NCBI RefSeq assembly: GCF_000768685.1
Contig: NZ_AVPK01000012.1
Coordinates: forward strand, 1-64,000
Reading direction: 5' to 3'
DNA: 64,000 nt
Origin: Knoellia subterranea KCTC 19937
GTDB taxonomy: Bacteria; Actinomycetota; Actinomycetes; Actinomycetales; Dermatophilaceae
Shown here: one piece after another, positions 864-63,024 of the stretch
Layout: the number at the start of each line of letters is the position of its first letter
Position numbering within the stretch: position 1 is the first letter of the stretch
The notes under the pieces: model-generated
Told to the model about the DNA's origin: nothing
What the model saw: the letters and a program-made list of their open reading frames with translations, nothing else
Databases searched by the model: none
Position numbers and translations under genes: made by a program

Positions 864-1840
864 CGCCGTGCTCCCTTCGTCGGACGGGTACGTTCTGCGG
901 CCCTGAGGCGGGCCGATGCGGATCGAGGATTCGTGGACTGCTCCGCGGCCGAGGGCTCCTCGGAGCCGCGGGTCAGCAGACGGAGGTATGCCGCGTGCTC
1001 GGGGAGCTCGACCGGCATACCGGGTGGGGTGCTCGAGGTCGCACCGGCCGCGAGCGCGCGCTTGGTGATGCGGTCCTCCAGCGAGTGGTAGGAGAGGACG
1101 GCGATCCGGCCACCCACCGCGAGCGAGTCGACGGCGCCGACGATGGCGCGCTCCCACGCGCCGAGCTCGTCGTTGACCTCGATGCGCAGGGCCTGGAAGG
1201 TTCGCTTGGCCGGGTGGCCCCCGGTGCGCTGCGACGCGGCCGGGACGGCTTCGCGCAGGAGCTCGACCAGTCGAGCGGATCGGGTGAACGGTTCCTTCTC
1301 GCGCTCGCGAACAATCGCGGAGACGATGCGCTTGGCGAAGCGCTCCTCTCCGAAGTCGCGCAGGATCCGGATGAGGTCACCCGGCGCGTAACCGTTGAGC
1401 ACTTCCGCCGCGGTGATACCCCGCCCCTGGTCCATCCGCATGTCGAGCGGAGCATCCTGGGCGTAGGCGAACCCGCGGTCCGCCTCGTCGAGCTGGAGCG
1501 AGGAGACCCCGAGGTCGAACAGCACGGCCTGCACGGCCCCGGATGTGTGCTCAGCCACGACGTCGGCGATCTCGTCGTAGACCGCGTGGACTCCGACGAA
1601 CCTGTCCCCGAAATTCGCGAGGCGCTCGCCCGCCAGGGCCAACGCCTCCTCGTCCCGGTCGATCCCGATGACCCGAGCCTCCGGGCAGTGCTCGAGGAAG
1701 GCCTCGGTGTGGCCGCCCATGCCCAGCGTCCCGTCCACGAGCACCGACCCCGGATCGGTGAGGGCAGGGGCCAGCAGGTCGACGATGCGGTCGCGGAGCA
1801 CGGGAACGTGCCGCTCGTGCGCGGCTCCCCGTGACGACAT
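860..1840 (-). CDS. rsmH: 16S rRNA (cytosine(1402)-N(4))-methyltransferase RsmH
   Basis: Predicted 326 aa, normal for the family. It methylates N4 of C1402 in 16S rRNA, in the decoding centre, using S-adenosylmethionine. The N-terminal HVPVL motif, the SAM-binding [10 protein letters not shown] and GIDRD, the LFDLGVSS motif and the C-terminal SYHSLEDRI all match the MraW/RsmH family. The start ATG at 1840 has AAGGAG upstream with good spacing. It lies between mraZ and ftsL in the division/cell-wall cluster and ends in a 4-nt overlap with ftsL. Confidence 0.97.
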
Positions 1841-1882
1841 CTGCTGCTCCTTCGTGGTGGGTGGCTGTTCTCCAGCGCTGCG

Positions 1883-1937
1883 GTGGTGCGAAGTGGTGCG
1901 ACTCGGCTGTGGTGCGAGGGGTGGTGCGAAGTGGTGG
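1883..1937. repeat. four copies of a 9-bp direct repeat in the mraZ-rsmH spacer
   Basis: GTGGTGCGA occurs at 1883, 1893, 1909 and 1921 on the plus strand, in the transcribed gap between mraZ and rsmH (1841-2032). The rest of the gap is GC-rich with several short hairpins. A structured mraW RNA motif is known upstream of this gene in some actinobacteria. I could not establish whether this gap matches it. The repeats could be a protein or RNA binding site or simple slippage. Confidence 0.6.
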
Positions 1938-2032
1938 GCGCTCCCCGGCCCCTGGTCCCCATCCGTCCGGGGCCCGGCACGGGGGAAGTCGTGTCGGGAA
2001 CCGGTCGGCTGGAGGCCGAGGGCCGGGGTGGA

Positions 2033-2464
2033 TCACATGAGTCCGGGGATGACCTCCTCGGACTGCTCGGAGTAGGCCTGCTCGGTGCTGGCCAGGTAGT
2101 CGTTCCACGCCTCGGTGTCCCAGACCTCGACCCGCGAGCCGGTGCCGATGACGGTGCACTCGCGGTTGAGACCCGCGTACTGACGCAGGTGCGCGGGGAT
2201 CGTGACGCGCCCCTGCTTGTCGGGGATCTCGTCGCTGGCCCCGGACAGGAAGACACGGATGTAGTCGCGCACCGCGCGGTTCGTCGTCGGCGCCTCCTGC
2301 ATCTGCTGCGTGACCTTGACGAACTCGTCCATGGGGAAGACGTAGAGGCAGCGCTCCTGCCCACGGGTCACGACGAGGCCGGTCGAGAGGCGCTCGCGGA
2401 ACTTGGCGGGGAGGAACAGCCGGCCCTTGTCATCGAGGCGAGGCGTGTGCGTACCGAGAAACAC
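2033..2464 (-). CDS. mraZ: transcriptional regulator MraZ
   Basis: Predicted 143 aa from GTG at 2464, the usual length in actinobacteria. Two SpoVT/AbrB-type repeats are visible, marked by [12 protein letters not shown] near the N-terminus and [12 protein letters not shown] in the middle. MraZ forms ring-shaped oligomers and binds direct repeats upstream of its own gene to control the division/cell-wall cluster. An earlier in-frame ATG at 2506 exists, but the GTG that yields Met-Phe-Leu-Gly-Thr matches family N-termini. It is the first gene of the minus-strand mraZ-rsmH-ftsL run. Confidence 0.96.
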
Positions 2465-2510
2465 CGCACTCACCACCCCTTCTGACTCGACCCACCGGGC
2501 CAACACTTCG

Positions 2511-2535
2511 CTCCGGTGTCCTCCACTTTACTCCA
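2511..2535 (-). promoter_or_regulatory. MraZ box array upstream of mraZ
   Basis: On the minus strand this reads TGGAG-TAAAG-TGGAG-GACAC-CGGAG: three pentamers repeated every 10 bp, 47 nt or more before the mraZ GTG. MraZ is known to bind TGGGN-type pentamers separated by 5 nt, so this is very likely its autoregulatory operator. Confidence 0.75.
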
Positions 2536-2598
2536 CCTCCAACCGAAATCAAGTCGTTATCAACCTCAAACCCTCCTTTTTCCGCAGGTCAGAGTAGG

Positions 2599-2761
2599 TG
2601 GTGGAAAGTGGGGCACATTCGCAGACCACAGCGTGATTCGGGCACATGAGCACCCGGCATACCGGCGTGTATGCCGCCCCGCGGCGCCGGCGGAACCTGA
2701 ACGAACGCTGGGAGCCTCACCTTTTCCCGCCCCATCCCTCCCCGAGTGGAGCAATGTGGGG
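2599..2761 (+). promoter_or_regulatory. two MraZ-type box pairs plus an inverted CGGCATAC pair ahead of moxR
   Basis: Two further pentamer pairs with exact 5-nt spacers face the plus-strand moxR gene: TGGTG-GAAAG-TGGGG at 2599-2613 and TGGAG-CAATG-TGGGG at 2747-2761. Between them lie CGGCATAC (2655-2662) and GTATGCCG (2669-2676), an inverted pair with a 6-nt spacer. With the mraZ operator these account for the 351-bp gap 2465-2815. I see no convincing gene in it. Confidence 0.5.
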
Positions 2762-2815
2762 CAAGATCGAAGACCCCGTTGCGCAGGGCTGCGGGTGCAC
2801 CCCGAGGAGCCACCG

Positions 2816-3846: not shown

Positions 3847-5145
3847 ATGCGACGATTCCGCGACTCACTCACCACGCGCGGCGCCGCGTTCCTCGCGTCG
3901 GGCATCGTGCTCGTTCTGGCCGGTCTGGCGCTCGGCCAGCACGACCTCAGCCGGATCGGCACGGCGCTCGGCGCACTGCCCATCCTCTCGGGGCTCCTCG
4001 GGCGCCGGCACGACCTCGACCTGGTCGTCGACCGCGAGGCCCAGCCCTCGCGCGTCACCATCGACCAGCCGGCGGTCGTCCAGATGACGCTGTCCAACCC
4101 GTCGACGACCCGCTCGCCGATGCTCTTCGCCGAGGAACACCTCGACTACTCACTCGGCGACCGACCACGGTTCGTGCTCCCGTCGCTCGCAGCCGGCGGA
4201 TCAACGCATGTGGAGTATGCCGTCCGCGCCCACGCGCGCGGAGCTCACCGACTCGGTCCGCTCGGCGTCCGGGTCCAGGACCCCTTCGGGCTCACGCTCC
4301 GGCACGCTTCGGTCAGCACCCACGACGAGCTCCTCGTCCTGCCAAGGGTCGTCGCCCTCGCCGATGGTCGGGCGCTCGGCCGCGGCCTCGGCTCGGAAGG
4401 TTCGGTCCCTCACCGGGTCGCGCTGCACGGCGAGGATGACCAGTCGATCCGTGAGTACCGCGACGGTGACGACCTGCGCCGCATCCACTGGCCGGCGACC
4501 GCCCGCACCGGTGAGCTCATGGTGCGTCAGGAGGATCGTCCGGCGAAACGTCGAGCCGTCGTGCTCCTCGACACCCGGGCACAGGCACACGGAGGCAAGG
4601 GTCCGTCGGGCTCCCTCGAATGGGCAGTCACCATGGCCGCCTCCGCGCTGGCCCACCTGCTGGAGATGGGTTTCGCCGTCCACCTGCTCACCCCCGACGG
4701 CGAATCGGAGTCGGGGGTACGCGAGGACACCGACCTCGACCGCGGTCTCGAAACCCTGGCCCGCACCGTCCACTCCGAGGACAAGGGCATCGGAAGCCTG
4801 CTCCACGCGGCGAGTGCCGCGACCGCGCAGGGAGGACTGGTCGTCGCCATCGTCGGCGCCGTCGACGACGACGCCTCGCGTGCGCTGGCCTCCCTCCGTC
4901 AGCCCGGTGGCCCCGGCTTGGCATTCGTCATCAACGCGGCGTCCTTCGGTGGCCGGACTGCGACACCGACCGCGGCATCGAGTGGCGCACCGGGTGCCGC
5001 GCCGGGCGGGGACGTCGGTCCGCCGGCCACGACGGCGTCACTCGCGGGTGCCGGATGGTCGGTCCTGAGCGTCGACCCGCAACTCGGCGTCGCCGACGCG
5101 TGGGCTGCAGCGGCCGGATCCCGCAGTCTGGTGGGTGCCCGATGA
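3847..5145 (+). CDS. DUF58 domain-containing membrane protein
   Basis: Predicted 432 aa. Two membrane segments lie near the N-terminus (about 12-50), followed by a beta-rich region with the EDDQSIREYRDGDDLRRIHW signature typical of DUF58 (about residues 195-215) and a VWA-like C-terminal region (VVLLDTR). DUF58 proteins are thought to work with MoxR ATPases in envelope-linked complexes. The stop overlaps the next gene in an ATGA. The function of the family is not firmly established. Confidence 0.93.
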   Translation: MRRFRDSLTTRGAAFLASGIVLVLAGLALGQHDLSRIGTALGALPILSGLLGRRHDLDLVVDREAQPSRVTIDQPAVVQMTLSNPSTTRSPMLFAEEHLDYSLGDRPRFVLPSLAAGGSTHVEYAVRAHARGAHRLGPLGVRVQDPFGLTLRHASVSTHDELLVLPRVVALADGRALGRGLGSEGSVPHRVALHGEDDQSIREYRDGDDLRRIHWPATARTGELMVRQEDRPAKRRAVVLLDTRAQAHGGKGPSGSLEWAVTMAASALAHLLEMGFAVHLLTPDGESESGVREDTDLDRGLETLARTVHSEDKGIGSLLHAASAATAQGGLVVAIVGAVDDDASRALASLRQPGGPGLAFVINAASFGGRTATPTAASSGAPGAAPGGDVGPPATTASLAGAGWSVLSVDPQLGVADAWAAAAGSRSLVGAR

Positions 5146-7451
5146 ACCGCACCCGCCCGCTGGAAGCCCTCCTCGCTGCCCTCGCGACCTTGGCCGTCGC
5201 CCTTCCCCTCCTCACCCTCTTCGACTCCAACACGTGGGTGCGCCCCGCCGGCCTCGTCATCGTCACGATCGCGCTCGTCGGCGTGGGCCTGCGCTCACTC
5301 GCGCTGTCGGCGTGGGTCGTGATCCTCGGCCAGGCCGTGGCAGGGTTCCTCGCCATTTCGTGGTTGCACGGACGGGGCCACCTCTTGGGCGGACTCCTCC
5401 CCGGACCGGACAGCGTGCACGCCCTGGGCATCCTGCTCGGCGAGGCCCGCGAAACGGTCATGGCCTTCTCGGCTCCTGTCCCGACCGAACGCGGCATCAT
5501 CGTGGCCATCACGATCCTCGTCGGCTTCACGGCGCTCGTGGTCGACGCCGTGGGGGTGACCCTGCGCTCCCCCGCACTGGCCGGTCTCGCCCTCCTCACG
5601 GCATACCTCGTGTCGGCGACGAACTCCGGTGACGGGCTCTCGTGGAAGTACTTCATCCTGCCGATCGCCTTCTGGCTGGCACTGCTGGCGACACAGGGAC
5701 TTGGCGTCGTCCGGCGCTGGAGCACCACGGTGCCGCGTGGTTCCGATGGCGCGGATCACGACCCCGTTCTCGGTGTCGCCGGAACGGCCCGGCTCCTCGG
5801 GGCGGGCACGCTCGCATTGGCCATCGTGCTGCCCATGGTCGTGCCGCACCTGCCCACGACCTTCCTCGCCGACGGCCTCGGCCGAGCGGACAACGCCCGC
5901 GGCGGAGGCTCGATCACGCTCAACACCACGGTTGACCTACGACGCTCCCTCGAGGACCAGTCGCAGACGCCGGTCATCAGCTACCGGACGACGACGACCA
6001 GCCCGGATCCCCTGCGCGTCGCGATCCTCACGGACTACCGGCGGGGCGAGTGGAGTACCGGCTTCACCGCCGGGCGCAACGTTCAGCCCGACTCCATCGC
6101 CCAGGATGGCGACCCGTCGGTCAAGCGCACCCCGGTTCGGATCGACGTCACCGAGAACCGGCTTCAGGCACCTCAGATCGCCCTGCCATCACCGCTGCAG
6201 AACGTCGACCTTGGAGACGTGCCTCTGCGCACCAACTTCGTCGGCAGCTTCGAGGTCGACCGCAACGTCGGCGAATACACCGCGAACTACAACCAGCTGC
6301 AACCGACGACCGGCGACTTCTCGACGGACGGTCCGGGGCCACGCGGCTGGGACGAGGGGATCTACAACGAGATCGACGGCGAGAGCTTCGAACGGCTCCA
6401 GGAACTCGTCAACAACGTCGTGCCCGAGGGTTCCACCCCGCTGGAAACTGCGCGTCTGCTCCAGGCCCACTTCCGCAGCAGTCAGTACACCTACTCCCTC
6501 CAGCTGCCCACGCCGACCGATCCGGTATCTGGCCGCACGATGATGGCCGACCCGCTGTCGAACTTCCTGGTGTCACGCACCGGCTACTGCGTCCAGTTCG
6601 CGTCCGCGTTCGTCATGGCCGCGCGCATCAAGGGCATCCCGGCGCGGTTGGCGATCGGGTTCCTCCCGGGCACGTTCGCCAATGCCTCCTACACCGTGCG
6701 CGCGGCGGACGCCCACGCCTGGCCGGAACTGTGGTTCCCGGACCTCGGGTGGACCCGCTTCGAGCCCACGCCCGGTGTCCGTACGGGTGGTGCGCCGACC
6801 TACAGCCTCATCCCCACCGAGGTCGGCCCCACGGAGTCGGCGTCGCCCACGGCGTCCAGCTCCGCCCCGGCACCGACCGCGAGCGAACGACCCGACAGCG
6901 ACACCGGATCGGTCGGTCCCACCACGACGTCGACGAGCGGCCCGTTCCGATGGATCACCGACAACCTGCTGACCCTCGTCGTCATCGTCGCCGCGTTGCT
7001 GTCGCTGCTCCTTTTGCCGGTTGCGGCCTGGGTGCGTCGACGGCGCCTGCGCAAGGCTGCCCGTGACGATGCGGAGCGGGTCGAGGCCGACTGGGCCTCG
7101 CTCATCTCCAGGCTCGGCGACATCGGCATCGCCCCACCCGACGGGAGCACACCGCGGCAGGCCGGGACCCGGCTCGCCCACGACGCCATTCTGTCGGCCG
7201 AGCCCAAGGCCGCGATGGGCCGGATCGTCTCGACCGTCGAGCAGGCGCGCTACGCGCCGCCCCATGCGCAGATCCCCGACGTCAGCACCGACACCCGCGC
7301 CGTCTGGCGTGCGGCACTGTCCGCGCGCCAGCGCGGTGACCGGGTTCGCGCGCTGCTGATCCCTGCCGACGGGCTCCGCCAATGGCGCGACGTCGTCGAC
7401 GGAACCCTCGCGTGGCCACGACGGGCATGGTCTCGCCTCCGCCGGCGTTGA
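5142..7451 (+). CDS. TgpA-like transglutaminase domain membrane protein (DUF3488/DUF4129)
   Basis: Predicted 769 aa. The N-terminal region has about six membrane helices. It is followed by a large extracytoplasmic transglutaminase-like domain with the Cys in GYCVQFA, the His in ADAHAWPE and the Asp in FPDLGW. A Ser/Thr/Pro linker, a final membrane helix and a cytoplasmic DUF4129-like tail complete it. The family is related to TgpA of Pseudomonas; its physiological substrate is unknown in actinobacteria. The start ATG overlaps the DUF58 stop (ATGA), so the MoxR-DUF58-TgpA trio is a translationally coupled operon. Confidence 0.93.
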   Translation: MNRTRPLEALLAALATLAVALPLLTLFDSNTWVRPAGLVIVTIALVGVGLRSLALSAWVVILGQAVAGFLAISWLHGRGHLLGGLLPGPDSVHALGILLGEARETVMAFSAPVPTERGIIVAITILVGFTALVVDAVGVTLRSPALAGLALLTAYLVSATNSGDGLSWKYFILPIAFWLALLATQGLGVVRRWSTTVPRGSDGADHDPVLGVAGTARLLGAGTLALAIVLPMVVPHLPTTFLADGLGRADNARGGGSITLNTTVDLRRSLEDQSQTPVISYRTTTTSPDPLRVAILTDYRRGEWSTGFTAGRNVQPDSIAQDGDPSVKRTPVRIDVTENRLQAPQIALPSPLQNVDLGDVPLRTNFVGSFEVDRNVGEYTANYNQLQPTTGDFSTDGPGPRGWDEGIYNEIDGESFERLQELVNNVVPEGSTPLETARLLQAHFRSSQYTYSLQLPTPTDPVSGRTMMADPLSNFLVSRTGYCVQFASAFVMAARIKGIPARLAIGFLPGTFANASYTVRAADAHAWPELWFPDLGWTRFEPTPGVRTGGAPTYSLIPTEVGPTESASPTASSSAPAPTASERPDSDTGSVGPTTTSTSGPFRWITDNLLTLVVIVAALLSLLLLPVAAWVRRRRLRKAARDDAERVEADWASLISRLGDIGIAPPDGSTPRQAGTRLAHDAILSAEPKAAMGRIVSTVEQARYAPPHAQIPDVSTDTRAVWRAALSARQRGDRVRALLIPADGLRQWRDVVDGTLAWPRRAWSRLRRR

Positions 7452-12551: not shown

Positions 12552-12624
12552 CAGCCCACCTCGGGAAGACTCACTTCACACAAATGTGGACAACCCGGCA
12601 TACCTCGTGGGTCTGTGGACGGGA

Positions 12625-13038: not shown

Positions 13039-13042
13039 GCGA

Positions 13043-13932: not shown

Positions 13933-15630
13933 ATGGCCCATCCCGGCGGCCCTGCCGACCTCGTCGCGGCCGTCGTCCACGACGGTCGCGCCGCACTCGT
14001 CGGCACGGGTCGTCGCGCCACGGGACGCGTCACGGACGTCGCTCGCGAGATGGCCGCCTGGGAGTCCGCGTCCCGTCCGCGATGGGTCTGGTGGTCTGCC
14101 CGGTATGCCGGTGAGCTGGCTGCCGCCGTCGGCTCACCCCTCGCGCGGGCCTGGGACCTGGCCGAGGCGCACCGGATCCTCCACGGCGGGTGGAAGGCCG
14201 AGCCGGGTCGCGTGTGGGCGGGAGCACACGGCATACCCACGTCGTCCATGCCGACCCCAGCCGCAGGTGACCTCTTCGACTTCTCGGCAGGTGACGGCAT
14301 CGGACCGGACGACCTCGTCCGAGCGGACGGCCACCTGCGCGCCGACGCCACCTCCGGGTGGCTCGAGAGCGACGAGCACCTGGCGATGTGGGCAGCCGCG
14401 GCGCTCGAATGCGCTGTGCGACAACGGGATCGGGCCGAATCCGTGGGTCCGCGAGCCACAGCGACCATCCACTCCGAATCCGCCGCGGCTCTCATGTGCC
14501 TCGAACTCGAACGCGGTGGGCTCCCGGTGAACCGACCCGTCATGGAGCGGCTCATCGGGGACTTCGCCGGGCCACGCGCGGCGTCGGAGGAGGCGGCCCG
14601 CGAGTCGCGCCGGCAGCGTGACCTCGAGGTGCTCCGCCACGTTCCCGGGCGGGAGTCGACCGACCTGCGCAACCCGCAGCAGGTGCGCGACATGCTCGTC
14701 GGGGTCGGCGTCGACGTGCCCAACACCCGCAAGTGGGTCCTCGACGGCTACCGCCAGGTGCATCCGGTGGTGGACGCGCTCCTCGCCTGGCGCAAGGCCG
14801 AGCGGATCGCGACCACTTATGGCTACCGGTGGCTCGACGAGTGCGTCGGCCCCGACGACCGACTGCGGGGTGGCTGGACCTCCTGCGATGGCGCGGCTGG
14901 GCGCATGACGGCGGAGAACGGATTGCACAACCTGCCCGCGGCCCTGCGTCCGGGCGTGGCCGCGCATCCGGGACACGTCTTCGTGCGTGCTGACCTCGGG
15001 CAGATCGAGCCGCGCGTCCTCGCGGTCGTCTCCGGAGATCCCGTGTTCGCGGAGGCGACCCGCGCCGACGATCTCTACGCACCCGTCGCCACGCGGCTCG
15101 GGGTCGAGCGACCGGTCGCGAAGGTGGCGGTGCTCGCGGCGATGTATGGCCAGCGCAGCGGCGCGGCAGGCGAGGCCCTGCGCGGGCTGGAGCGGGCCTA
15201 CCCGGTGGCGATGGGGCTGCTTGACCGGGCCTACGAGACCGGGGTGCGCGGGGAGCCGTTGCGGACCTTCGGCGGTCGGTTGATCCCGACCGGTCGCTTC
15301 CTGGCGCAGTCGCCCGTCGGAACCAATCCGGCGCTCGACGCGGCCCGGGGGCGCTTCGCACGCAACGCGATCATCCAGGGCGCTGCCGCGGAGCTCTTCA
15401 AGGCGTGGGCGGCGACGGTCCGGGCACTCGGACGACCTCTCGGCGCGGAGATCGTGCTGTGCCTGCACGACGAGTTGCTCGTGCACGCCCCCGCTGACAG
15501 AGCCGGCGACGTCGCTGAGCTGGTGAATCAGTCCCTGGCCGATGCCTCACGGCGGTGGGCTGCCGGTGCGCCGGTGCGGTTCGTCGCCGACACGTCGGTC
15601 ATCGAGCGCTGGTCGGACGCCAAGGACTGA
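13933..15630 (+). CDS. PolA-type DNA polymerase with N-terminal exonuclease-like region
   Basis: Predicted 565 aa, shorter than full DNA polymerase I and lacking a 5'-3' exonuclease domain. The C-terminal two thirds are a family A polymerase: motif A is RADLGQIEPR, motif B is reduced to KVAVLAAMYGQRSG, and motif C is LCLHDELLVH. The N-terminal 200 residues occupy the position of a 3'-5' exonuclease, but I cannot confirm an intact DEDD set. Such proteins are annotated in actinobacteria as bifunctional 3'-5' exonuclease/DNA polymerase, probably accessory or repair enzymes. It stands alone, ending at a long hairpin. Confidence 0.9.
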   Translation: MAHPGGPADLVAAVVHDGRAALVGTGRRATGRVTDVAREMAAWESASRPRWVWWSARYAGELAAAVGSPLARAWDLAEAHRILHGGWKAEPGRVWAGAHGIPTSSMPTPAAGDLFDFSAGDGIGPDDLVRADGHLRADATSGWLESDEHLAMWAAAALECAVRQRDRAESVGPRATATIHSESAAALMCLELERGGLPVNRPVMERLIGDFAGPRAASEEAARESRRQRDLEVLRHVPGRESTDLRNPQQVRDMLVGVGVDVPNTRKWVLDGYRQVHPVVDALLAWRKAERIATTYGYRWLDECVGPDDRLRGGWTSCDGAAGRMTAENGLHNLPAALRPGVAAHPGHVFVRADLGQIEPRVLAVVSGDPVFAEATRADDLYAPVATRLGVERPVAKVAVLAAMYGQRSGAAGEALRGLERAYPVAMGLLDRAYETGVRGEPLRTFGGRLIPTGRFLAQSPVGTNPALDAARGRFARNAIIQGAAAELFKAWAATVRALGRPLGAEIVLCLHDELLVHAPADRAGDVAELVNQSLADASRRWAAGAPVRFVADTSVIERWSDAKD

Positions 15631-16701: not shown

Positions 16702-19700
16702 TCACGGAATCAGGGTAGCGATCGCCGCCCGTACCCGCTTCTCGCTGACCGGGTGCGCCGTCCCGAGTGACTGCGCGAAGAGGCTGACCCGCAACTCCTC
16801 GATCTGCCATGCGACGTCGGTCACCTCGGGTGCCCGCCTGTCCGTCGCCGGGAGCGCGTCGAGCAGATCGGCGTATGCCGTCTCGATCCCGTCGATCTGT
16901 GCCTGCAGCTGCGCTTCGCGCGCGTTCGTTGCGGCCCGCTCGAGCCGCTGGAGCATGGCGCGAAGGTAGCGCTGGAGATGCGGGAGGCGGGCCAGACCAC
17001 TGTCCGCGACGAACCCGGGGCGGATGAGGCCGTCGAGCTGTGCCCTCACATCGGCGAGGGTCACCGCCAGGCTCTGGCGGGCTGCGCTGGTGCCGAGCGC
17101 ATCGAGGCGGCGGCGCACGTCACCTGCCAGCGCAAGCACCGGCTCCACGGCTTCGATGACCTGGAGGACGCGTGTGACGACGTGGGTGCGCACCGCAGCG
17201 TGGGCGGTGTCGTACTCGGCCCGGGTGCGGACCTCGGCCGGCACGTGTTCGGCAACGATCGAGTCGACGGCGGCCGCCAGGCAGTCCTCGAGAAGCGCCG
17301 GCACCGATCCGTGGGGGTTCTGTCCGAGGGCGAGCTTCTGGGCGTTGCTCAGCCGGGCCAGCACGCGCTTCCACGGCGCGGTCGTGTTGAGGAGAAGCAG
17401 TCGGCGGACACCGGCCCGGTGTGCCGCCGTCGCCGAACCGGCGTGGTCGAGGACCCTCAGGGCGACGCTCGCACCCTCGTCGACGAGGGCCGGGAAGCCC
17501 TGAACGGTGTGACCTGCGGAGCGCCCCTCGAAGGTCCGCGGCACGTCGTCCATCGTCCAGTCGGTCAGTCCCGTGCGTTCGATCGACGCGCCTGCCCTGG
17601 CCATCCGTTGACGGACGGCACCCTGCGATTTCGGCCGCAGCTCATCGAGGTCCTTGCCCCGCGCAATGACCCTCCCGCCGGGCGCCTCCACGGAGAAGGT
17701 GATCCGCAGATGGTCGGGGACGCGAGCCCAATCCCACTCTCCTGCACCGATGCTCACGCCCGTGCGGTCCTTGAGAACCCGTGCCAGGTCGTCGGTCAAG
17801 GAGGCACCCGAGGCACGGTCGGCTCCGGCGAGTGCTGCCCGGGCGTGGTCCGGCGTGGGGACGAAGTGGCGTCGGGTCGCCTTGGGCAACGACTTGAGCA
17901 GGGCAATGGCCAGGTCCTCGCGCAACCCGGGGACCTGCCAGTCGAAACCCTCCGCCGTCACCCGGTTGAGGATGGCCGTGGGCACGTGGACCGTCACGCC
18001 GTCAGCGGCATCTCCGGGTGAGAACTGATAGGTCACGTCGAGGTCGAGGTCCCCCTGCTGCCACGTCCGCGGGTAGTCCTGGGCCGACACTGCGTCGACG
18101 TCGTCCCGGGTGAGGAGCTCCTCGGTGAAGGTGAGCAGGTCGGGACGGCGCCGATGCTCACCTCGCCACCACCGGTCGAAGTGCCGCGCCGACGTGACGT
18201 CAGGCGGGACGCGCGCGTCGTAGAACGAGAAGACCACCTCGTCGTCGACGATGAGATCGCGGCGGCGGGCACGCTCCTCCAACTCCGAAAGGCGCTGCAG
18301 GAGTTCGGCATTCGCCTTCCAGAACTTGTGGTGGGTGTCCCAGTCCCCCTCGACCAGCGCATGTCGGATGAAGAGCTCGCGCGCCTCCTCGGGGTTGATC
18401 CGGCCGTATTGCACCGTGCGGTCGACGATGAGCGGCACCCCGTAGAGCGTCACCCGCTCGGACGCGACGACACTCCCCTGCGACTTCGACCATCGCGGCT
18501 CGCTGTAGGTCCGCTTGACCACGTGTGCGCCGACCTCCTCGGCCCACTCGGGGTCGATCGCGGCGTTGACCCGGGCCCACAACCGCGTGGTCTCGACGAG
18601 CTCCGCGGCCATGACGACATCGGGTTGCTTCTTGAACAGGCCCGACCCGGGATTGATGCCGAAACGCGAACCCCGCGCACCGGCATACTCGCGCCGTTGT
18701 TCGTCACGGACGCCGACGTGCGAAAGGAGGCCGGCGAGCAACGCCTTGTGCACGACGTCCCAGTCCGGCTCGGTGTCCTTCGCCGACGTGCTGCGGTCGG
18801 GATCGATGCGCGCCTGCTTGCACGCTGTGCGCAGCTGCTGGTGGAGGTCCTGCCACTCCCGGATCCGGAGATAGTGGAGGAACTCGGCCTTGCACATGCG
18901 ACGAAAAGCGCTGCCGGACAACGCTTTCTGTTGTTCCTTGAGGTAGCGCCAGAGCGCGTGGAAGCCCGCGAAGTCGGATGTCTCGCTCTTGAAGCGCGCG
19001 TGCTGCTGCTGCGCCTGGGCCTCCTTGTCGACCGGACGCTCTCGCGGATCCTGGATGGACAGAGCCGCGACGATGACCAGCACTTCGCGGGTGCAACCGA
19101 GTCGTCCGGCTTCGATGATCATCCGACCCATGCGCGGATCGAGTGGCAGTCTCGCGAGCGTCTTTCCGTATGCCGTGAGGCGCCTCTCGCCGCGCCTCCC
19201 CTTGTCGTCGCGCAGGGCGCCGAGTTCGTCGAGCAGCCGCACGCCATCGACGATCTGCTTCTGGTCGGGGGCATCGACGAAGGGGAACCGTCCGATGTCA
19301 CCCAGTCCGAGAGCCGTCATCTGCAGGATGACCGCCGCCAGCGAGGTCCGCTGGATCTCGGGGTCGGTGAACTCGGGTCGTGACTCGAAGTCCTCCTCCG
19401 AATAGAGCCTGATGGCAACGCCATCGGCGACACGGCCGCATCGACCCGAACGTTGCGCCGCACTCGCCTGCGAGATCGGTTCGATGGGGAGCCGTTGGAC
19501 CTTGGTGCGCTGCGAGTAGCGAGAGATGCGCGCCGTGCCGGTGTCGATGACGTAGCCAATGCCGGGGACCGTCAGCGACGTCTCGGCGACGTTGGTCGCG
19601 AGGATGATCCGTCGGCCACTCCCCCGCGTGAAGACCCGGTGCTGCTCGGCGGCCGAGAGACGGGCGTAGAGAGGCAGGACATCGGTGTGGGGCAGGTTGA

Positions 19701-22089: not shown

Positions 22090-22158
22090 CCACAGGGCCC
22101 GGACGCGAAGGCGCCGGGCCCTGTGGGACACAGCGGACGGCATACGACGCCGTCCGCT
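22090..22158 (-). terminator. two tandem terminator hairpins after metY
   Basis: A 10-bp stem (22132-22141 with 22149-22158, carrying CGGCATAC) is followed in the minus direction by a 13-bp perfect stem (22090-22102 with 22114-22126). They separate metY from the ESX-like pair. Confidence 0.75.
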
Positions 22159-27006: not shown

Positions 27007-28254
<1,248 letters not shown>

Positions 28255-40431: not shown

Positions 40432-40536
40432 CGCAAGGCGAGCCGCCCTGTGGGAGACCGCAACCCGGCATACGCGATGAACTCGGTCCGTCAACGAGAA
40501 CCGGCCGGACAGCGGCCGCGAGCCAAGGAGTACAGC

Positions 40537-41158: not shown

Positions 41159-41195
41159 GGTATGCCGTCCGCTCGCCTCGAGCGGACGGCGTACC
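41159..41195 (+). terminator. octamer-pair terminator hairpin
   Basis: Arms 41159-41173 and 41181-41195 pair over 15 bp with one G-T wobble around a 7-nt loop. The left arm carries GTATGCCG and the right arm the near copy CGGCGTAC. It lies 26 nt past the stop of the preceding gene. Confidence 0.8.
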
Positions 41196-45320: not shown

Positions 45321-46223
45321 TCAGTCGACCGCCGCGTCGTCGCGGAGCAGCGCGTAGCCATACGTGTCGAGCCACTCCCCCGAACGGTGCAAGGCATCCG
45401 CCACCGCATGAAGCTCGCGCCGCATCCCGACCCGTTCCATGAGACGCCATGACCGCTCGTTGTCCGCGAAGGAGAATGCCACGATCCGCCGAATCCCCAA
45501 CTCGGAGAGGCAGATCCGAATCATCGCGCGGACCGCTTCAGTGCCGAAACCCTTCCCCTCGTATGCCGGGTGCAGAGTCCACGCCAGCTCCGCCTGGGTG
45601 CCCCTCGCGTCGTCAACCACGTCCGTCTGGCCCCAGGCGTCCTCGACCCGGAGCATGAGGTCACCGATGACCTCACCGTCGTGCTCGACGACCAGCGTGA
45701 CGGCGATCCGGTCGGCTTCGGCGAATCGCGCCCGGAACGCCTCGATCGCCATGGGGCCGTCGCTCTGCCACTGGCACACGGAGTCGAGGTGCCGGAAGGC
45801 CCACACCGCATCGGCGTCCTCGGGGCGGGCCGGGCGAAGGGTCAGCCGTTCGGTCTGCTTCGGCCATGAGAGCCCAGTCAGAGGCGTCCCCGCGGCAGCC
45901 ACCGCCGCGGCGCCATCGACGGACACAGCGCCGTCGACGAACACAGGGCTATCGATGGACGGGGCACCGCCGACGGAGGCGGCACGGCTGTCCTTCGCAC
46001 CAGCTGGCTCCGAGACCATGCGCACAGCCAACAGCGGCGCTCCGACGTCACGCAAGCCCGCGAGCACGCCGTGCAACTGGGACTGATCGGCCAGCGCCCC
46101 GCTGAGCACCGACGTGCCGTCGCCGTCGTGACGGAGCTCGAGTCCGCCCAGCCGCCCTGACCAGTGTTCGTCGAGGTGGCCGGCCACCTGGAACTCATAC
46201 GTCGCAGCCACGGTGGCCCTCAC
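45321..46223 (-). CDS. GNAT acetyltransferase with N-terminal accessory domain
   Basis: Predicted 300 aa from GTG 46223, which overlaps the stop of the upstream pseudogene in GTGA. Residues 1-70 (YEFQVAGHLDEHWSGRLGG, LSGALADQSQLHGVL) form a small domain often seen alone in actinobacteria. A low-complexity Ala/Ser/Asp linker follows, then a RimJ/RimL-type GNAT domain (about 115-300) with LRPARPEDADAVW and HPAYEGKGFGTEAVRAMI for acetyl-CoA binding. Substrate unknown. The fusion of the two domains is unusual. Confidence 0.82.
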   Translation of the reverse strand: MRATVAATYEFQVAGHLDEHWSGRLGGLELRHDGDGTSVLSGALADQSQLHGVLAGLRDVGAPLLAVRMVSEPAGAKDSRAASVGGAPSIDSPVFVDGAVSVDGAAAVAAAGTPLTGLSWPKQTERLTLRPARPEDADAVWAFRHLDSVCQWQSDGPMAIEAFRARFAEADRIAVTLVVEHDGEVIGDLMLRVEDAWGQTDVVDDARGTQAELAWTLHPAYEGKGFGTEAVRAMIRICLSELGIRRIVAFSFADNERSWRLMERVGMRRELHAVADALHRSGEWLDTYGYALLRDDAAVD

Positions 46224-47340: not shown

Positions 47341-47382
47341 GCCCAGCGGCATACGGAGGTTTCATTCCGTATGCCGCTGGGC
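47341..47382 (-). terminator. 17-bp perfect hairpin with paired octamers
   Basis: Arms 47341-47357 and 47366-47382 are perfect complements around an 8-nt loop, each carrying the octamer CGGCATAC/GTATGCCG. It lies 36 nt past the stop of the VWA gene. The rest of the gap 47155-47417 has a short tandem repeat near 47280-47310 and nothing else clear. Confidence 0.85.
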
Positions 47383-54651: not shown

Positions 54652-54784
54652 TGCCATCTCCCTCTTCTGCCCGGCTCAACCCGGGCGTTCTGTGACCTGT
54701 TATTGAGTGAATCAGCGACCACTGACAGTCCGTGCCAGCGATCGAATGGTGCTGGTGATGCGACGTTCTTTTCGCGTATGCCGG

Positions 54785-55300
54785 TCAGCTGGGACCGGCG
54801 GCCGGGTCGCCTTCGCGACCGGACGGCATACGTTCAGGCTCGTGGCCGAGGGCTTCGCGCTCGACGCGCAGCAGGGTGATCGCCTGCTCGAAGTCCTCGA
54901 GGTTGTCGAAGGCCTGGTAGACGCTGGCGAACCGCAGGTAGGCGACCTCGTCGAGGCACCGCAGCGGCTCGAGGATGGCGAGCCCGACCTCGTGGGCGTC
55001 GACCTCGGCCTGTCCGAGGCCGCGGATCGACTCCTCCACCTTGTGGGCGAGGAGGGCGAGCTCGTCCTCGGTGACCGGTCGGCCCTGGCAGGCCTTGCGG
55101 ACGCCGACGAGGACCTTGGCCCGGCTGAACGGCTCCGTCGCTCCGGACCGCTTGACGACGGACAGTGCCGCGGTCTCGACGGTCGTGAAGCGCTTGCCGC
55201 ACTCGGGGCACTGACGGCGGCGGCGAATGCTCGAGCCGTCGTCGGTGGCGCGCGAGTCCATGACGCGTGAGTCGGTGTGACGACAGAACGGGCAGTGCAT
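54785..55300 (-). CDS. nrdR: transcriptional repressor NrdR
   Basis: Predicted 171 aa from ATG 55300 (AAAGGAG). An N-terminal zinc ribbon ([28 protein letters not shown]) is followed by an ATP-cone domain ([20 protein letters not shown]). It represses ribonucleotide reductase genes in an (d)ATP-dependent manner. It precedes nrdJ, as in Streptomyces. Two NrdR-box-like sites lie upstream. Its 3' end contains one GTATGCCG-type octamer and another overlaps its stop region. Confidence 0.96.
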
Positions 55301-56109: not shown

Positions 56110-56146
56110 GGTATGCCGGCCGCGCGAGTCGCGCGGACGGCATACC
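56110..56146. terminator. octamer-pair hairpin at left edge of caspase/CHAT module
   Basis: Arms 56110-56125 and 56131-56146 pair with one mismatch around loop GAGTC, each carrying the octamer. It lies between the convergent VOC and hydrolase genes and differs from the hairpin at 61543-61579 at only one of 37 positions. Confidence 0.8.
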
Positions 56147-59078: not shown

Positions 59079-61511
59079 GTGACCCTCGCGGAGGAGGTCC
59101 TGCAGGTGGCGCTGAACGCCCCTGACACCCTCCCGGCCAGGCTCCAGGCCGCCGGGGCGCTCCCACCTGACGTGGCTGTCGAGGTGGCTCAGGCCGGGTT
59201 CACCGCTCTGGATGCCGGCGACCTGCCTCGAGCCCGGGCCGCATTCGGTGCGGCCATGCTCATGTTCAGCAACAACGACGACTGGCCCCGTGCCATCACC
59301 TGCGGCGTCCAACATGCCGAGATCTGCAAGGTGCTCGCGACGACGGAGGATGAGCATTCGTCGGCCCGTGATCGAGCAGTGGGCATGCGAGGGCTGGCGC
59401 GCCGGTTGCGGTTGGCCACGCAGGCCTTCAATGCCGGGGTCGTGGTGGCAGACAGCGCCTGGTTCGCTGGGCAGTCCGCCCGGGAGCAGCGCGACCATGA
59501 GGCCTACGGTCGGTGGCTGCTCGTCACCCTCGACGACTGTGTCGATGCACTGACCCTCATCGAGACCGATCCCACCGGTGGGCGGGCACGGAATCTCATC
59601 TCGCTCGTCGGGGTCGCCGTGCGTGAGGTCCAGCAGACACCGTGGCTCGACGCCGAACAATCACAGGCAGACGCGGCCCTGCGCAAGGTCGCCCTCGCGA
59701 CCGAGTCCTTCGTGGCCCCCGGGACCCACTCCTTCACGGGCGGCGCGTCCAGCCAGACGGATCTGGAGCTGGTTCTCGCGGGTCTGTCCTACCAATGGGG
59801 CAGCCCTGATGTCGCCCGCGCGCGACTGACGCACGTTGCGGAAACGGCCCACGCCGGTGGGGACCTCACGACCTTCATCGAGGCCGTCTCAACTCTGTAT
59901 GCCGGTGAACGGGAGTGCTATCGGCTCACCGACACGCTCATCGCGGTGACGGAACGGTTCGCAGGAGCTGTCGACGACTTCCGAAGCAGCTCGCGATCCC
60001 GGGCGGGGCGGCTCTGGATGGCCCAACAGCTCGACGAGCTGAGTGGCGACATGGTGACGGACGAGTTCACCCGGCTGGTGGGACGCGATGTCGAGCGCGC
60101 CTACCAGGCGGTCGAACGCTTCCGCGCGCGCACGCTGCTCGACGAGATGACCGGTCACGTGCGCGAACTCGAACCGTCCCTGCGGGATCGGGCCGCCGCA
60201 CTGGGCGCGGCGGTCCTTCATCTCGAGGCTCCCCCGACCCTGGACGACGACGTCGGCGACCAGATCCGACTCGTCAGTCGCCTCCCCATTGGTGGCCTGA
60301 CGGCCGACCCGGAACGGCTCCGGACGTTGGCCACTCTCGAAGCGCTTCACGCCGAGTCCGACGCCGGCTTCATCGGGACCGAACCGATCGGTTCCCTCGA
60401 CAGCGTCATCGGCCGGCTGGCACCCGACGAAGCGATCGTGACCTACCACATCCCCTACGACGCGCTCGATCCGGCGGGAACGCTCCTGATCATGGCGATC
60501 ACGCCCCGAGGCCCGCTGACCCTCCACCTCCCGCTGCATCCCGGCGAGGGAGTTGGGCACTTCATCGGCCGGATCCAGGTCGACGGCCGGCAACCGATCG
60601 ATGCCAGCCCGCTGGCCGAACTGATCGTCAACACCCGAATGTCGATCCTCGACAACGACGGGGACGCCGACCCGCGGCTTGCCGAGCTGTATCGGATCCT
60701 CGTGGCACCCCTCAAGGAGGCGGGTCTGGCGATCCGTGACTTCCGGACCCTCTTCATCGTCCCCCACGGCATCCTCCATGCCGTGCCGTTCGCCGCTCTG
60801 CGCACGCCCGAGGGGCGTTGTCTCGTCGAGGATGTCGCCACCGTGGTCGTGCCCAGCGTCTCGGTGTGGGAGGTCCTTCGCGAGCGCGAAGCCACGGCAC
60901 CCAGGCGCTTCGTCGGCTTCGCGAACCCGTCCGTGACGGACTATGAGCCGCTCCCCCAGGCCGAGCTCGAGGTCGCCGAGGTGCGCTCGCTCCTGTCGCA
61001 GCTGGAGGCGAGTGTGCTCGTGGGCGACGAGGCCAGCGAGTCGGCACTCCGTCGATGGTCCCCCGGCGCAGACGTTGTTCATCTCGCGACCCACGGCGAA
61101 TTCCCCGAGGCCGACGCCATGAATCTGCATCGCGTCCTCTTGAGTGCAACGGAGGAACACGACGGCCACGTCAACGCCGAGGAACTCCGGAGTCTGGACC
61201 TGAGATCCGCTCAACTCGTCGTCCTCAGTATCTGTGATGGCGGCGTCTACCGCTTCGGGCCGGGCGATGAGCCCTATGGCTTGCTGTCGGCTCTCCTTGC
61301 CGCCGGAGCCCGGAACGTGTTGGGGCCGCTGTGGGCGGTCGAGGACACCCAGACCCGACTCCTCATGACCACGTTCTATCGTCGTCTGCTCGCCGACGGG
61401 CCCGCCGTCGCCCTGCAGCACGCCGTCGTGGACCGGCTGCGGGCCGGCGCCCAGATCCGAGACTGGGCTGGCTTCGTCCTCTTCGGCGGCGGGATGTGGG
61501 CGACCGCCTGA
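59079..61511 (+). CDS. CHAT domain protease with N-terminal helical repeats
   Basis: Predicted 810 aa from GTG 59079; the frame stays open upstream but crosses the caspase gene. The N-terminal 430 residues are helical with TPR-like spacing (AGFTALDAGDLPRARAAFGA, GSPDVARARLTHVAETAHAG). The C-terminal CHAT domain (about 480-810) has the entry motif IVPHGILHAVPFAAL, the His in VVHLATHGEFPEAD and the Cys in LVVLSICDGGVY, then LLAAGARNVLGPLWAV. CHAT is the caspase-HetF-associated protease family, which includes separase relatives and the Craspase protease. Two divergent caspase-fold proteases in one locus is striking. Confidence 0.87.
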   Translation: MTLAEEVLQVALNAPDTLPARLQAAGALPPDVAVEVAQAGFTALDAGDLPRARAAFGAAMLMFSNNDDWPRAITCGVQHAEICKVLATTEDEHSSARDRAVGMRGLARRLRLATQAFNAGVVVADSAWFAGQSAREQRDHEAYGRWLLVTLDDCVDALTLIETDPTGGRARNLISLVGVAVREVQQTPWLDAEQSQADAALRKVALATESFVAPGTHSFTGGASSQTDLELVLAGLSYQWGSPDVARARLTHVAETAHAGGDLTTFIEAVSTLYAGERECYRLTDTLIAVTERFAGAVDDFRSSSRSRAGRLWMAQQLDELSGDMVTDEFTRLVGRDVERAYQAVERFRARTLLDEMTGHVRELEPSLRDRAAALGAAVLHLEAPPTLDDDVGDQIRLVSRLPIGGLTADPERLRTLATLEALHAESDAGFIGTEPIGSLDSVIGRLAPDEAIVTYHIPYDALDPAGTLLIMAITPRGPLTLHLPLHPGEGVGHFIGRIQVDGRQPIDASPLAELIVNTRMSILDNDGDADPRLAELYRILVAPLKEAGLAIRDFRTLFIVPHGILHAVPFAALRTPEGRCLVEDVATVVVPSVSVWEVLREREATAPRRFVGFANPSVTDYEPLPQAELEVAEVRSLLSQLEASVLVGDEASESALRRWSPGADVVHLATHGEFPEADAMNLHRVLLSATEEHDGHVNAEELRSLDLRSAQLVVLSICDGGVYRFGPGDEPYGLLSALLAAGARNVLGPLWAVEDTQTRLLMTTFYRRLLADGPAVALQHAVVDRLRAGAQIRDWAGFVLFGGGMWATA

Positions 61512-61542
61512 GCACCTTCGTCTCACCCGAACCCACAACGCA

Positions 61543-61579
61543 GGTATGCCGTCCGCGCGAGTCGCGCGGACGGCATACC
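61543..61579 (+). terminator. octamer-pair hairpin at right edge of caspase/CHAT module
   Basis: Arms 61543-61558 and 61564-61579 are perfect 16-bp complements around loop GAGTC, 31 nt past the CHAT stop. The sequence is the same as the hairpin at 56110-56146 except for one base. Confidence 0.85.
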
Positions 61580-61612
61580 GTCACGGTGTTCTTGCCTGAG
61601 CAAGAAGGTGAG

Positions 61613-62290
61613 TCAGAGGCCGGGGCCCTGGGAGCGGAGCTTGTCGACCTCGCTCATCGCCTCACGGAGCTGACCGAGCCATTCGTCGGCGTGCTGGCCG
61701 ACGAGTCGGACCGACCACGCGAGCGCGTCGCTCCGGGAGCGAGCGACGCCGGCGTCGACGAGGGTGTCGAGGACCTGGCGCTCGGGCTGACGCAGGCGCG
61801 TCATGACCGGAGCCGCAAGGTGGGTGAAGAGCGCCTCGGTCTCGCCGAGTCGCACGCCCCAAGAGACCTTGCGCTCGTAGCGAGCCTCGGCCTCCTGGGC
61901 GATCGCGATGCGCGCCTCCTTGGTGTCGGCACGCCAGCGGCTGATCCGACCCTCGGCTTCAGCCGGCTTGAGGTCTTCCGCGGCGAGGGTGCCGATGACG
62001 GTGATCTCGTCACGGTCGACGTTGATGTCGACGTCGGTGAACCAGTCACTGGGCAGGCGCCCGGTGAACCAGTCCTGGGCGTCGTCGGCGCTGGGGACGT
62101 CGGCCTGCTGCCAGCCGCCGGGCCGGCCCATTCCGCGACCCATGCCGCGGCCGCGACCGCCGCCGGGACCGCCCATGCCACGGCCGCCGCGCGGGCCGCC
62201 GGGACCACGCCCGGGCATGCCGCGACGGGAGCCGCGCTCGGTGGGACGGGGGGTGTCTTCGGGGGTGAAGTGTGTGTGGTGGGACCTCAT
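61613..62290 (-). CDS. conserved actinobacterial protein with Gly/Arg-rich N-terminus
   Basis: Predicted 225 aa; AAGGAG lies before ATG 62290. The first 60 residues are Gly/Arg/Met/Pro-rich and probably disordered. The rest contains WFTGRLPSDWFTDVDINVDR, EITVIGTLAAEDL and a helical C-terminal part (SDALAWSVRLVGQHADEWL) that resembles a ribbon-helix-helix-like region. No named family recognised with confidence. An Arg/Gly-rich region could bind nucleic acid; that is inference. A 7-bp inverted repeat lies upstream. Confidence 0.7.
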   Translation of the reverse strand: MRSHHTHFTPEDTPRPTERGSRRGMPGRGPGGPRGGRGMGGPGGGRGRGMGRGMGRPGGWQQADVPSADDAQDWFTGRLPSDWFTDVDINVDRDEITVIGTLAAEDLKPAEAEGRISRWRADTKEARIAIAQEAEARYERKVSWGVRLGETEALFTHLAAPVMTRLRQPERQVLDTLVDAGVARSRSDALAWSVRLVGQHADEWLGQLREAMSEVDKLRSQGPGL

Positions 62291-62315
62291 GGTGGGTCTC
62301 CTTCCTGATGGTGCT

Positions 62316-62338
62316 GCACTGCGTCGGTATTGCAGTGC
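62316..62338 (-). promoter_or_regulatory. inverted repeat upstream of Gly-rich protein
   Basis: GCACTGC (62316-62322) and GCAGTGC (62332-62338) are perfect complements with a 9-nt spacer, 26 nt before the ATG on the minus strand, next to the A/T-richest patch nearby (62330-62360). A candidate operator. Confidence 0.45.
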
Positions 62339-62424
62339 TTACATCATTACACAACGACACTCATTGCGGAATGTTCCCGTTCCCCACACTCCGACTTCTT
62401 GCCCCCGTGGGACACAATGGGGCC

Positions 62425-63024
62425 ATGTCGGACGACGCCACGTGGGAGACGCATCCGGTGACGCCTGACCGGTTCGAGGACTTCGTCACCGTCGTCAACG
62501 CGAACCGGCGCCCCACCCACTGTTGGTGCCTCTCGCACCGCCTCACCCAGGCCGAGATCACCGAGCTGGGAGGTGACGGACCCACGCAACGTGAGCAGGC
62601 GATGCGCGCCCTGTGCGAACGCGAACTGCCACCGGGCGTCGTGACCTACCGGGACGGCATACCCGTCGGGTGGTGCAACATCGGACCGCGAGCCGACATC
62701 ACCCGGCTCGCCCGGTCCAAGCTCATGCTCCCCACCGACGACCTGCCCGTCTGGAGCATCGTCTGCGTCGTCGTGCGCAGCGGCCACCGCAGGCAGGGCG
62801 TGACGCAGCACCTCCTCGAGGGCGCCGTCGACTACGCCAGGGCCAACGGCGCGCCGGCGGTCGAGTCCCATCCGGTTGACCCGCCCGGGCGCATGGACCT
62901 CACGATGGCGTTTGTCGGCACGCGCGCGATGTTCGAGAAGGCCGGCTTCGAGGTCGTCGGCACGACCGAGGCGACGGCGAGCAAACTGCCCCGGCTCACG
63001 ATGCGCCGCACACTCGCCGCTTGA
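62425..63024 (+). CDS. GNAT family N-acetyltransferase
   Basis: Predicted 199 aa from ATG 62425. The acetyl-CoA site is in IVCVVVRSGHRRQGVTQHLL, and the C-terminus has MFEKAGFEVVG, both standard GNAT features. The N-terminal PTHCWCLSHRLT segment is typical of a subgroup annotated simply as GNAT. Ile-87 or so is encoded by the rare codon ATA inside the octamer CGGCATAC (62655-62662). Substrate unknown. A partial copy of the 15642-15716 stem arm lies just upstream at 62392-62418. Confidence 0.88.
   Translation: MSDDATWETHPVTPDRFEDFVTVVNANRRPTHCWCLSHRLTQAEITELGGDGPTQREQAMRALCERELPPGVVTYRDGIPVGWCNIGPRADITRLARSKLMLPTDDLPVWSIVCVVVRSGHRRQGVTQHLLEGAVDYARANGAPAVESHPVDPPGRMDLTMAFVGTRAMFEKAGFEVVGTTEATASKLPRLTMRRTLAA

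Follow-up and report, generated by a model that had tools for sequence, protein, structure and literature searches.

The first 64,000 nucleotides of contig NZ_AVPK01000012.1 of Knoellia subterranea KCTC 19937 (hereafter the window) carry, among others, genes for rsmH, a MoxR-type ATPase, an RpoD-type sigma factor, a HrpA-like helicase, a Cys/Met-metabolism pyridoxal-phosphate enzyme and a class II ribonucleotide reductase, and the 20 window proteins that were scanned resemble a core chromosome. Scattered through these genes and the spaces between them is the octamer GTATGCCG, the subject of this analysis, which is non-palindromic and reads CGGCATAC on the reverse strand. An earlier note on this DNA had put its number at about 43 with balanced orientations, and the exact count is indeed 43, 21 forward and 22 reverse, the first beginning at 986 and the last ending at 62662; 100 dinucleotide-preserving shuffles gave a mean of 0.91 and a maximum of 4, and an order-3 Markov model predicts 2.2 copies in the window (z=25), placing GTATGCCG first among the over-represented octamers. 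The octamer is real and genome-wide, is kept at the DNA level, and has single-base dialects in related genera. Its best reading is as an uptake signal of the kind represented by the DNA uptake sequence (DUS) of Neisseriaceae and the uptake signal sequence (USS) of Pasteurellaceae, one that would have arisen separately in Gram-positive bacteria without type IVa pili.

Along the window, placement in or between genes follows gene prediction, and the fractions given after the strand are the aligned congeners in which the octamer is unchanged. The copies at 986..993 (+) and 1013..1020 (-), inverted relative to each other, lie in the rsmH/mraW gene, followed by an intergenic pair at 2655..2662 (-; 3/7) and 2669..2676 (+; 4/7). 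The DUF58 gene holds 4215..4222 (+; 8/8) and the TgpA/transglutaminase gene 5599..5606 (-; 5/8); 12596..12603 (-; 5/8) is intergenic. Two copies fall in the DNA polymerase A-like gene, 14103..14110 (+; 8/8) and 14229..14236 (-; 4/8), the latter read as Gly-Ile with ATA, and three in the HrpA-like helicase gene, 16873..16880 (+; 8/8), 18681..18688 (-; 8/8) and 19168..19175 (+; 7/8). Intergenic copies at 22138..22145 (-) and 23514..23521 (+; 1/6) precede 23767..23774 (+; 6/8) in an aldo/keto reductase gene, 24899..24906 (-; 7/8) in predicted gene 24774-25205 and 27308..27315 (-; 8/8) in a class III aminotransferase gene, and the gene caller leaves 28337..28344 (+) and 28898..28905 (-) intergenic. 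Predicted genes then carry 30002..30009 (+; 6/8), 31283..31290 (-; 4/6), 31858..31865 (-; 6/8), 33098..33105 (+; 2/2), 33274..33281 (-; 1/2), 35320..35327 (-; 4/4) and 35444..35451 (+; 4/4), and a histidine kinase gene carries 39181..39188 (+; 4/4). The copies at 40403..40410 (-; 2/3), 40466..40473 (-; 3/3), 41160..41167 (+) and 42185..42192 (+) are intergenic, those at 44968..44975 (-) and 45561..45568 (+; 1/2) lie in predicted genes, and 47347..47354 (-) and 47369..47376 (+) form the arms of an intergenic hairpin. Further on, 54776..54783 (+) is intergenic and 54824..54831 (-) sits at the 3' end of predicted gene 54785-55300; 56111..56118 (+) with 56138..56145 (-), and 61544..61551 (+) with 61571..61578 (-), are again intergenic hairpin arms, with 59897..59904 (+) between them in a CHAT-domain gene; the last copy, 62655..62662 (-), is read as Gly-Ile with ATA in predicted gene 62425-63024. 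The two longest octamer-free gaps, 5607-12595 and 47377-54775, enclose the genes for the RpoD-type sigma factor (7635-9341) and the class II ribonucleotide reductase (51670-54651).

Six inverted pairs in the window lie less than 60 bp apart, and on these the earlier note needs a correction, since three of them are strong intergenic hairpins: 47347/47369 (-39.4 kcal/mol, z -7.7), 56111/56138 (-34.9 kcal/mol, z -4.0) and 61544/61571 (-41 kcal/mol, z -6.5). As to the other three, 986/1013 folds but does so within a gene (z -1.3), 2655/2669 gave no self-pairing on folding, and 54776/54824 pairs partially, in the centroid fold only and not in the minimum-energy fold. The hairpins at 56111-56145 and 61544-61578 are nearly identical, the octamer forming the outer stem and CCGCGCGAGTCGCGCGG the inner stem and loop, and look as if one hairpin unit had been copied.

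The enrichment extends to the entire genome (3.57 Mb in 33 contigs; G000 in our numbering), in which 1233+1211=2444 copies occur in 3,566,056 bp as against 54 of a reversed control (45-fold), or one every 1.46 kb on average. When 8-mers were counted de novo in 335 kb beyond the window, GTATGCCG again came first (212 copies against 9.3 expected); counts close to a third-order Markov expectation, which the earlier note named as a refutation, are not what is seen. Throughout the genus roughly every second copy has T as its next base, and the flanks further out are weak. A short, asymmetric motif far above chance at about one per 1-2 kb is what marks signals of the DUS and USS type.

Alignment with eight congeners, available for 27 of the 43 window sites (the other 16 had no aligned congener), finds GTATGCCG intact in 123 of 159 comparisons at sites selected for its presence in K. 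subterranea (105 of 125 genic, 18 of 34 intergenic), against 24% of background 8-mers in coding and 26% in intergenic DNA; identity is thus kept at orthologous places, as in DUS and USS. Over the opening part of the window, each congener shows 0-1 copies at places that are empty in K. subterranea, which in turn has 1-5 at places empty in a congener. Silent sites tell the same story: 189 of 207 fourfold-degenerate sites (91%) are identical inside the octamer, compared with 55% of 44,419 outside. Codon counts, made in predicted genes with a caller score of at least 60, point the same way. TAT makes up 20% of Tyr codons, yet 63 of the 82 in the context G.TAY.GCN.G are TAT (61 of 69 in the congener G079), and of the 22 ATA codons in 399 kb of K. 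subterranea 13 belong to octamer copies (11 of 28 in G079). By a simple purpose-made gene caller, a 255-copy sample of the K. subterranea genome comprises 167 genic copies in all six frame classes, 85 intergenic ones, which are roughly threefold denser, and 3 that straddle borders; G079 similarly has 194 genic, 56 intergenic (twice the density) and 3 across borders among 253, a mixture of genic and denser intergenic copies with inverted hairpin pairs that again resembles DUS and USS. Tyr-Ala and Ala-Tyr are the commonest readings. The word is preserved as DNA even at positions that the protein code leaves free to drift, and on this point the earlier note stands: the ATA codons at 14229 and 62655 both follow from the predicted gene frames, rare codons (TAT and ATA) are imposed by the octamer, silent sites are conserved, and a single-frame codon-pair effect does not account for a word carried in six frame and orientation classes and in intergenic DNA.

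Comparison with relatives places this conservation within one family. Knoellia belongs to the Intrasporangiaceae in NCBI taxonomy and to the Dermatophilaceae in GTDB; all nine genomes of the genus carry 1,971-3,277 copies, and in a survey of 186 family genomes from 53 genera the octamer is dense in 30 genera (more than 200 copies per Mb in one genome or more). The remaining family genomes hold 7-200 copies, with some intermediate at about 200-620 (e.g. genera g9, g10 and g13, and genomes G119 and G131). Beyond the family the motif fades: across 362 genomes from 19 other families of the order the count never rises above 180 (the order set numbered 396, 34 of them from the family itself), and the maximum outside the family in a phylum sample of 227 genomes is 386 in 7.5 Mb, with a control of 176. 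Named relatives were reached through ComEC: the K. subterranea protein has its nearest named match in Knoellia remsis (77% identity), and further close ones lie in Phycicoccus, Janibacter, Intrasporangium, Humibacillus, Arsenicicoccus, Ornithinimicrobium and Terrabacter, among others. Screening of 12-22 kb around each named comEC locus found the octamer dense in Knoellia remsis (11 in 14.7 kb), Phycicoccus elongatus (22 in 22 kb), Humibacillus xanthopallidus (13), a Terrabacter (12) and Intrasporangium oryzae (10), sparser in four Ornithinimicrobium (3-16) and in Arsenicicoccus (6), and absent at the loci of Janibacter indicus, Intrasporangium flavum, Dermacoccus abyssi and one uncultured Phycicoccus.

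Several relatives poor in GTATGCCG carry a replacement word. When 20 family genomes in which copies are few or intermediate in number were searched de novo for octamers (20-60 kb per genome), GGATGCCG (G034, G178) and GTACGCCG (G002, G015, G089 and, weakly, G083) emerged, each a single-base variant of GTATGCCG, and genome-wide counts bear them out. GGATGCCG occurs 3,816 and 3,838 times in both genomes of g9, 3,949 times in G178 of g51, and 4,480 and 3,619 times in two g15 genomes (G034, G035); the other two g15 genomes have 2,195 and 2,099 alongside about 1,200 GTATGCCG. GTACGCCG reaches 2,366 and 2,618 in two of three g3 genomes, 1,125 and 2,529 in two of four g5 genomes, 1,359 and 2,216 in the single genomes of g6 (G014) and g7 (G015), and 2,111-4,185 in all three of g34. 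Within g32, G083 holds 1,463 GTACGCCG and its congener G084 holds 3,681 GTATGCCG with 177 GTACGCCG. The switched genomes G002, G003, G017, G018 and G034 retain 47-98 copies of GTATGCCG per Mb, as relics would; no such residue is seen in the switched G178, G015, G083 and g34. A ComEC tree of 45 sequences puts GGATGCCG at two distinct positions and GTACGCCG at three or more, and at least 13 state changes are needed when absence is counted as a state; dialects replace GTATGCCG in separate branches, and DUS-type signals are likewise spread among relatives as dialects. Since the natural background of GTACGCCG, presumably stemming from the codon pair TAC-GCC, reaches about 650 per genome, weak cases (G004 with 785, G019 with 752, G184 with 648) were not called; nor were G153 and G158 of g46, whose 1,210 and 1,336 copies of GGATGCCG are about twice the usual number. 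G143 and G146 of g43 carry both GTATGCCG and GTACGCCG. Some family genomes have none of the three words, and no one-base variant rises above z 4.4 in 20-60 kb of G053, G153, G082, G184, G038, G022, G011, G021, G008 and G001 or in 20 kb each of G113 and G069.

The copies are also arranged in a distinctive way. In the single-contig chromosome of the congener G079 the two orientations stand at 126/127 over 20 stretches of 20 kb, equal and without replichore bias as in DUS and USS, and there is no Mb-scale clustering in these stretches, one of which holds 2 copies only. Neighbours closer than 60 bp are all in opposite orientation in K. subterranea (18) and G079 (12), with none in the same orientation; the share is 41 of 43 in pooled GTATGCCG samples and 9 of 11 in G178. 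At longer range, same-orientation pairs are scarce below about 1.5 kb (32, 37 and 63 per 500-bp bin in K. subterranea and G079 together, against 66-82 in later bins), and opposite-orientation pairs have no short-range depletion. Among neighbours 60-1000 bp apart in these two genomes, 50 are in the same and 140 in the opposite orientation, a same fraction of 0.26 that lies below the lowest value in 300 orientation shuffles (0.42) and in 120 control octamers and 270 control heptamers (0.40). Accordingly, the coefficient of variation (CV) of gaps within each orientation is low in K. subterranea (0.72 and 0.71, against 0.99 and 0.98 for random placement; 0 of 2000 as low), and that for both orientations combined is 0.97 (335 kb of contig 1). 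In the small sample of the window alone the evenness gives p 0.10 and 0.04. G079 behaves alike (CV 0.72 and 0.80, with p 0.017 for 0.80), as does the GGATGCCG dialect in G178 (CV 0.69 and 0.77; 30 same and 63 opposite at 60-1000 bp); in pooled small samples of GTACGCCG genomes the orientation-specific evenness is not clear. Each orientation is spaced evenly by itself, and the two are placed independently. If a forward site renders further forward sites, but not reverse ones, superfluous within about 1.5 kb, the step that reads the motif must treat the strands separately; it might be the selection of the strand that enters or a process with a direction, e.g., end resection. The spacing gives a quantitative hint as to the step at which the mark is read.

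A route for DNA uptake is encoded in K. subterranea. The comEA-comEC and tadZ-tadA-tadB-tadC genes, which the earlier note had suggested looking for, are both present (the tad genes are named after their Pfam matches and their order), and in the actinobacterium Micrococcus luteus, itself a carrier of comEA/comEC, transformation depends on Flp/Tad pili (PMC4322843). ComEC was found in 180 of the 186 family genomes, motif-rich and motif-free alike; the six negatives (G016, G051, G121, G128, G168, G181; 341-1,485 motif copies) decide nothing, because they are incomplete or fragmented. ComEC was accordingly rejected as a presence/absence correlate of the motif, as were T2SSF/Tad, positive in 183 of 186 genomes (the three without, G024, G069 and G071, are all motif-free), and the type IVa pilus, represented by PilM in 7 of 186.

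Taken together, these features make it fairly probable that GTATGCCG is the core of a genome-wide mark of self DNA, maintained by natural transformation and working like DUS and USS. We favour an uptake signal because the density, balance, hairpins, intergenic preference, silent-site conservation, dialects and uptake path all match the descriptions of those systems. DUS is likewise short and asymmetric, with thousands of copies in coding and intergenic DNA, inverted hairpin pairs, and dialects among Neisseriaceae genera, some of which are motif-free (Frye et al., PMC3630211); USS has an average spacing of about 1 kb and hairpin pairs (PMC7811141, with uptake maps for H. influenzae), and an even genomic spacing according to Karlin et al. 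as cited in PMC1939737 (Bakkali); further matching anatomy is given by van Passel (PMC2346458). There are also clear differences. The host here is a high-GC Gram-positive, no PilM occurs in its genus, and an uptake role is read from sequence; the orientation-specific even spacing is a further feature of GTATGCCG. To USS, GTATGCCG is unrelated in sequence, no T-rich flanking motif was seen around it, and its evenness holds within each orientation and not for both together. We have not filed it in the DUS or the USS family, because a type IVa pilus, as judged by PilM, was not found.

Mechanistically, a surface DNA-binding component of the Tad/ComEA/ComEC path would prefer motif-bearing DNA, and the preferred uptake of marked DNA from kin would then spread and conserve the mark. 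A change in this receptor would bring about a dialect switch, and loss of a specific receptor would leave uptake unspecific and let the mark decay. Less certainly, the step that reads the motif may be strand-specific, since each orientation is evenly spaced alone and the two are independent. We tentatively extend this to a third independent lineage of self-DNA uptake signals, with its own dialects (GTATGCCG, GGATGCCG, GTACGCCG and genus-specific 3' extensions), a receptor in the Tad/ComEA path and a one-strand reading that marks each strand evenly; it would be the first known to us in Gram-positive bacteria, and the literature searched, whose coverage excludes most subscription papers and all preprints, held no report of such a signal in Actinomycetota. 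Sequence-marked uptake of self DNA has been described, in the papers cited, for two Gram-negative families. An independent case in high-GC Gram-positives, one in which close relatives switch dialect and the mark is lost repeatedly, would mean, if true, that type IVa pili are not required for the trait to evolve; it would also suggest that natural transformation shapes these genomes and, through sister genomes differing in dialect, would provide a natural experiment for finding the receptor.

Several observations weigh against an uptake signal, and here the interpretation offered by the earlier note fares less evenly than its counts: silent-site conservation, relatives, com/Tad genes and dialects speak for it, but no receptor was found, comEC does not track the motif and the spacing is not what the textbook uptake model predicts. 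Motif-free relatives keep comEC, comEA (present in the three examined, G001, G057 and G153) and mostly T2SSF, so the com genes do not explain the presence of the motif. PilM is missing from all nine genomes of the genus, unlike known bearers of DUS and USS, whose type IVa pilus has a DNA-binding minor pilin, ComP or its equivalent; ComP itself was not searched. Simple uptake does not predict spacing by orientation, because in H. influenzae uptake does not depend significantly on which way the USS points (PMC1939737). A USS-style bias of orientation towards gene ends was inconsistent between K. subterranea and G079. RecC, tabulated for 101 of the 186 genomes, occurs in 22 of 35 motif-free or weak genomes compared with 18 of 66 motif-bearing ones, a count uncorrected for kinship. 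Finally, motif-free genomes hold other enriched words at z 5-13 (G053 CCCCCTTC at 12.9, G001 CAGGGTGC at 9.7, G082 CATGGCCA at 9.0), and an unrelated replacement word may be in use there.

Among the alternatives, the main rival is a Chi-like recombination signal, in which a helicase-nuclease resecting DNA ends (AdnAB or another enzyme, not RecBCD) would read the octamer in an orientation-dependent manner. We consider it unlikely; it stays the main rival because strand-separate reading could be end resection. Each direction would then need its own regularly spaced sites, in agreement with evenly spaced and independent orientations of a non-palindromic octamer, and changes in the enzyme could yield dialects. 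K. subterranea also encodes a PDDEXK_1 protein with an open frame of 1,051 aa, which we take to be the size expected of an AdnAB-type subunit; its identity as AdnAB is putative. However, PDDEXK_1 is uninformative as a discriminator, with matches in 60 of 60 sampled genomes (60 of the 186), and proteins above 1,000 aa, likewise putative as AdnAB, occur among the matches listed also in the motif-free G001, G038, G053, G057 and G153; moreover, AdnAB is not, to our knowledge, known to respond to Chi. RecC (PF04257) is absent from all nine genomes of the genus, and RecBCD-Chi was rejected on this ground; in the family it is patchy (89 of 186). The E. coli Chi, another over-represented asymmetric octamer, is skewed (76/31) and uneven (CV 1.06 and 1.87) over 450 kb, unlike GTATGCCG, which is balanced and even and has no replication-linked skew. 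The motif is missing in many relatives as well, with no one-base variant in its stead in the 12 motif-poor genomes sampled. Within genus g4, G008 has RecC and lacks the motif, and the other four genomes lack RecC and have the motif.

Also improbable, and slightly more so, is a site for a protein that organises, segregates or marks the host chromosome, by binding or methylation. A genome-wide, conserved word that is evenly spaced within each orientation would be in keeping with such a role. Signals of the kind of FtsK-orienting polar sequences (KOPS) and architecture imparting sequences (AIMS) are skewed by strand along the replichores, whereas the G079 copies have no such bias and no Mb-scale clustering, and dialect switches or losses within genera (G083/G084; G008; G113) suit an essential chromosomal function poorly. 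Restriction-type sites, for their part, are usually avoided rather than enriched, which counts against host marking. The HIP1 octamer of cyanobacteria is likewise hugely over-represented and conserved in genes, but it is palindromic, and GTATGCCG / CGGCATAC is not.

The remaining two explanations are very improbable. Dispersed mobile or palindromic repeats, akin to repetitive extragenic palindromic (REP) sequences or miniature inverted-repeat transposable elements (MITEs), or transcription terminators would fit the near-identical hairpins at 56111/56138 and 61544/61571, but are contradicted for most copies by how little flanking sequence they share and by how few neighbour pairs in K. subterranea are inverted and less than 60 bp apart (18 of 253); the hairpins may serve as terminators in addition. 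A codon-pair or mutation/repair bias without any DNA function, for which the commonest frames Tyr-Ala and Ala-Tyr might speak, is already strongly contradicted by intergenic copies denser than coding ones, the use of all frames, the silent sites, the imposed rare codons and related genomes without the octamer.

The 3' extension of the octamer differs between genera, most visibly in G041 (genus g18, stretches L134-L136), where GTATGCCGCT is common to 22 of 23 copies in 60 kb, the motif continues as GTATGCCGCTG, and the whole extends to about CGTATGCCGCTG[G/A]G, far longer than in other sampled genomes and containing CTG. The Neisseria DUS ATGCCGTCTGAA has the letters ATGCCGT in common with the motif and CTG, the DUS core, in common with this extension; the match is possibly convergence and is not used as evidence. 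The octamer-free G053 (genus g27, stretches L029-L031), which lies near Janibacter as judged by ComEC of its congener G057, has 22 copies of CCCCCTTCG/CGAAGGGGG in 60 kb where 1.5 are expected.

Within the window, directly after the DNA polymerase A-like gene, an octamer-free, near-perfect inverted repeat of 75 bp with arms of about 26 bp (GACTTCTTGCCCTGTTGGGACACGAT...) occupies 15642-15716. It has BLAST matches in several K. subterranea contigs and in congeners, and is perhaps a dispersed terminator or REP-like repeat.

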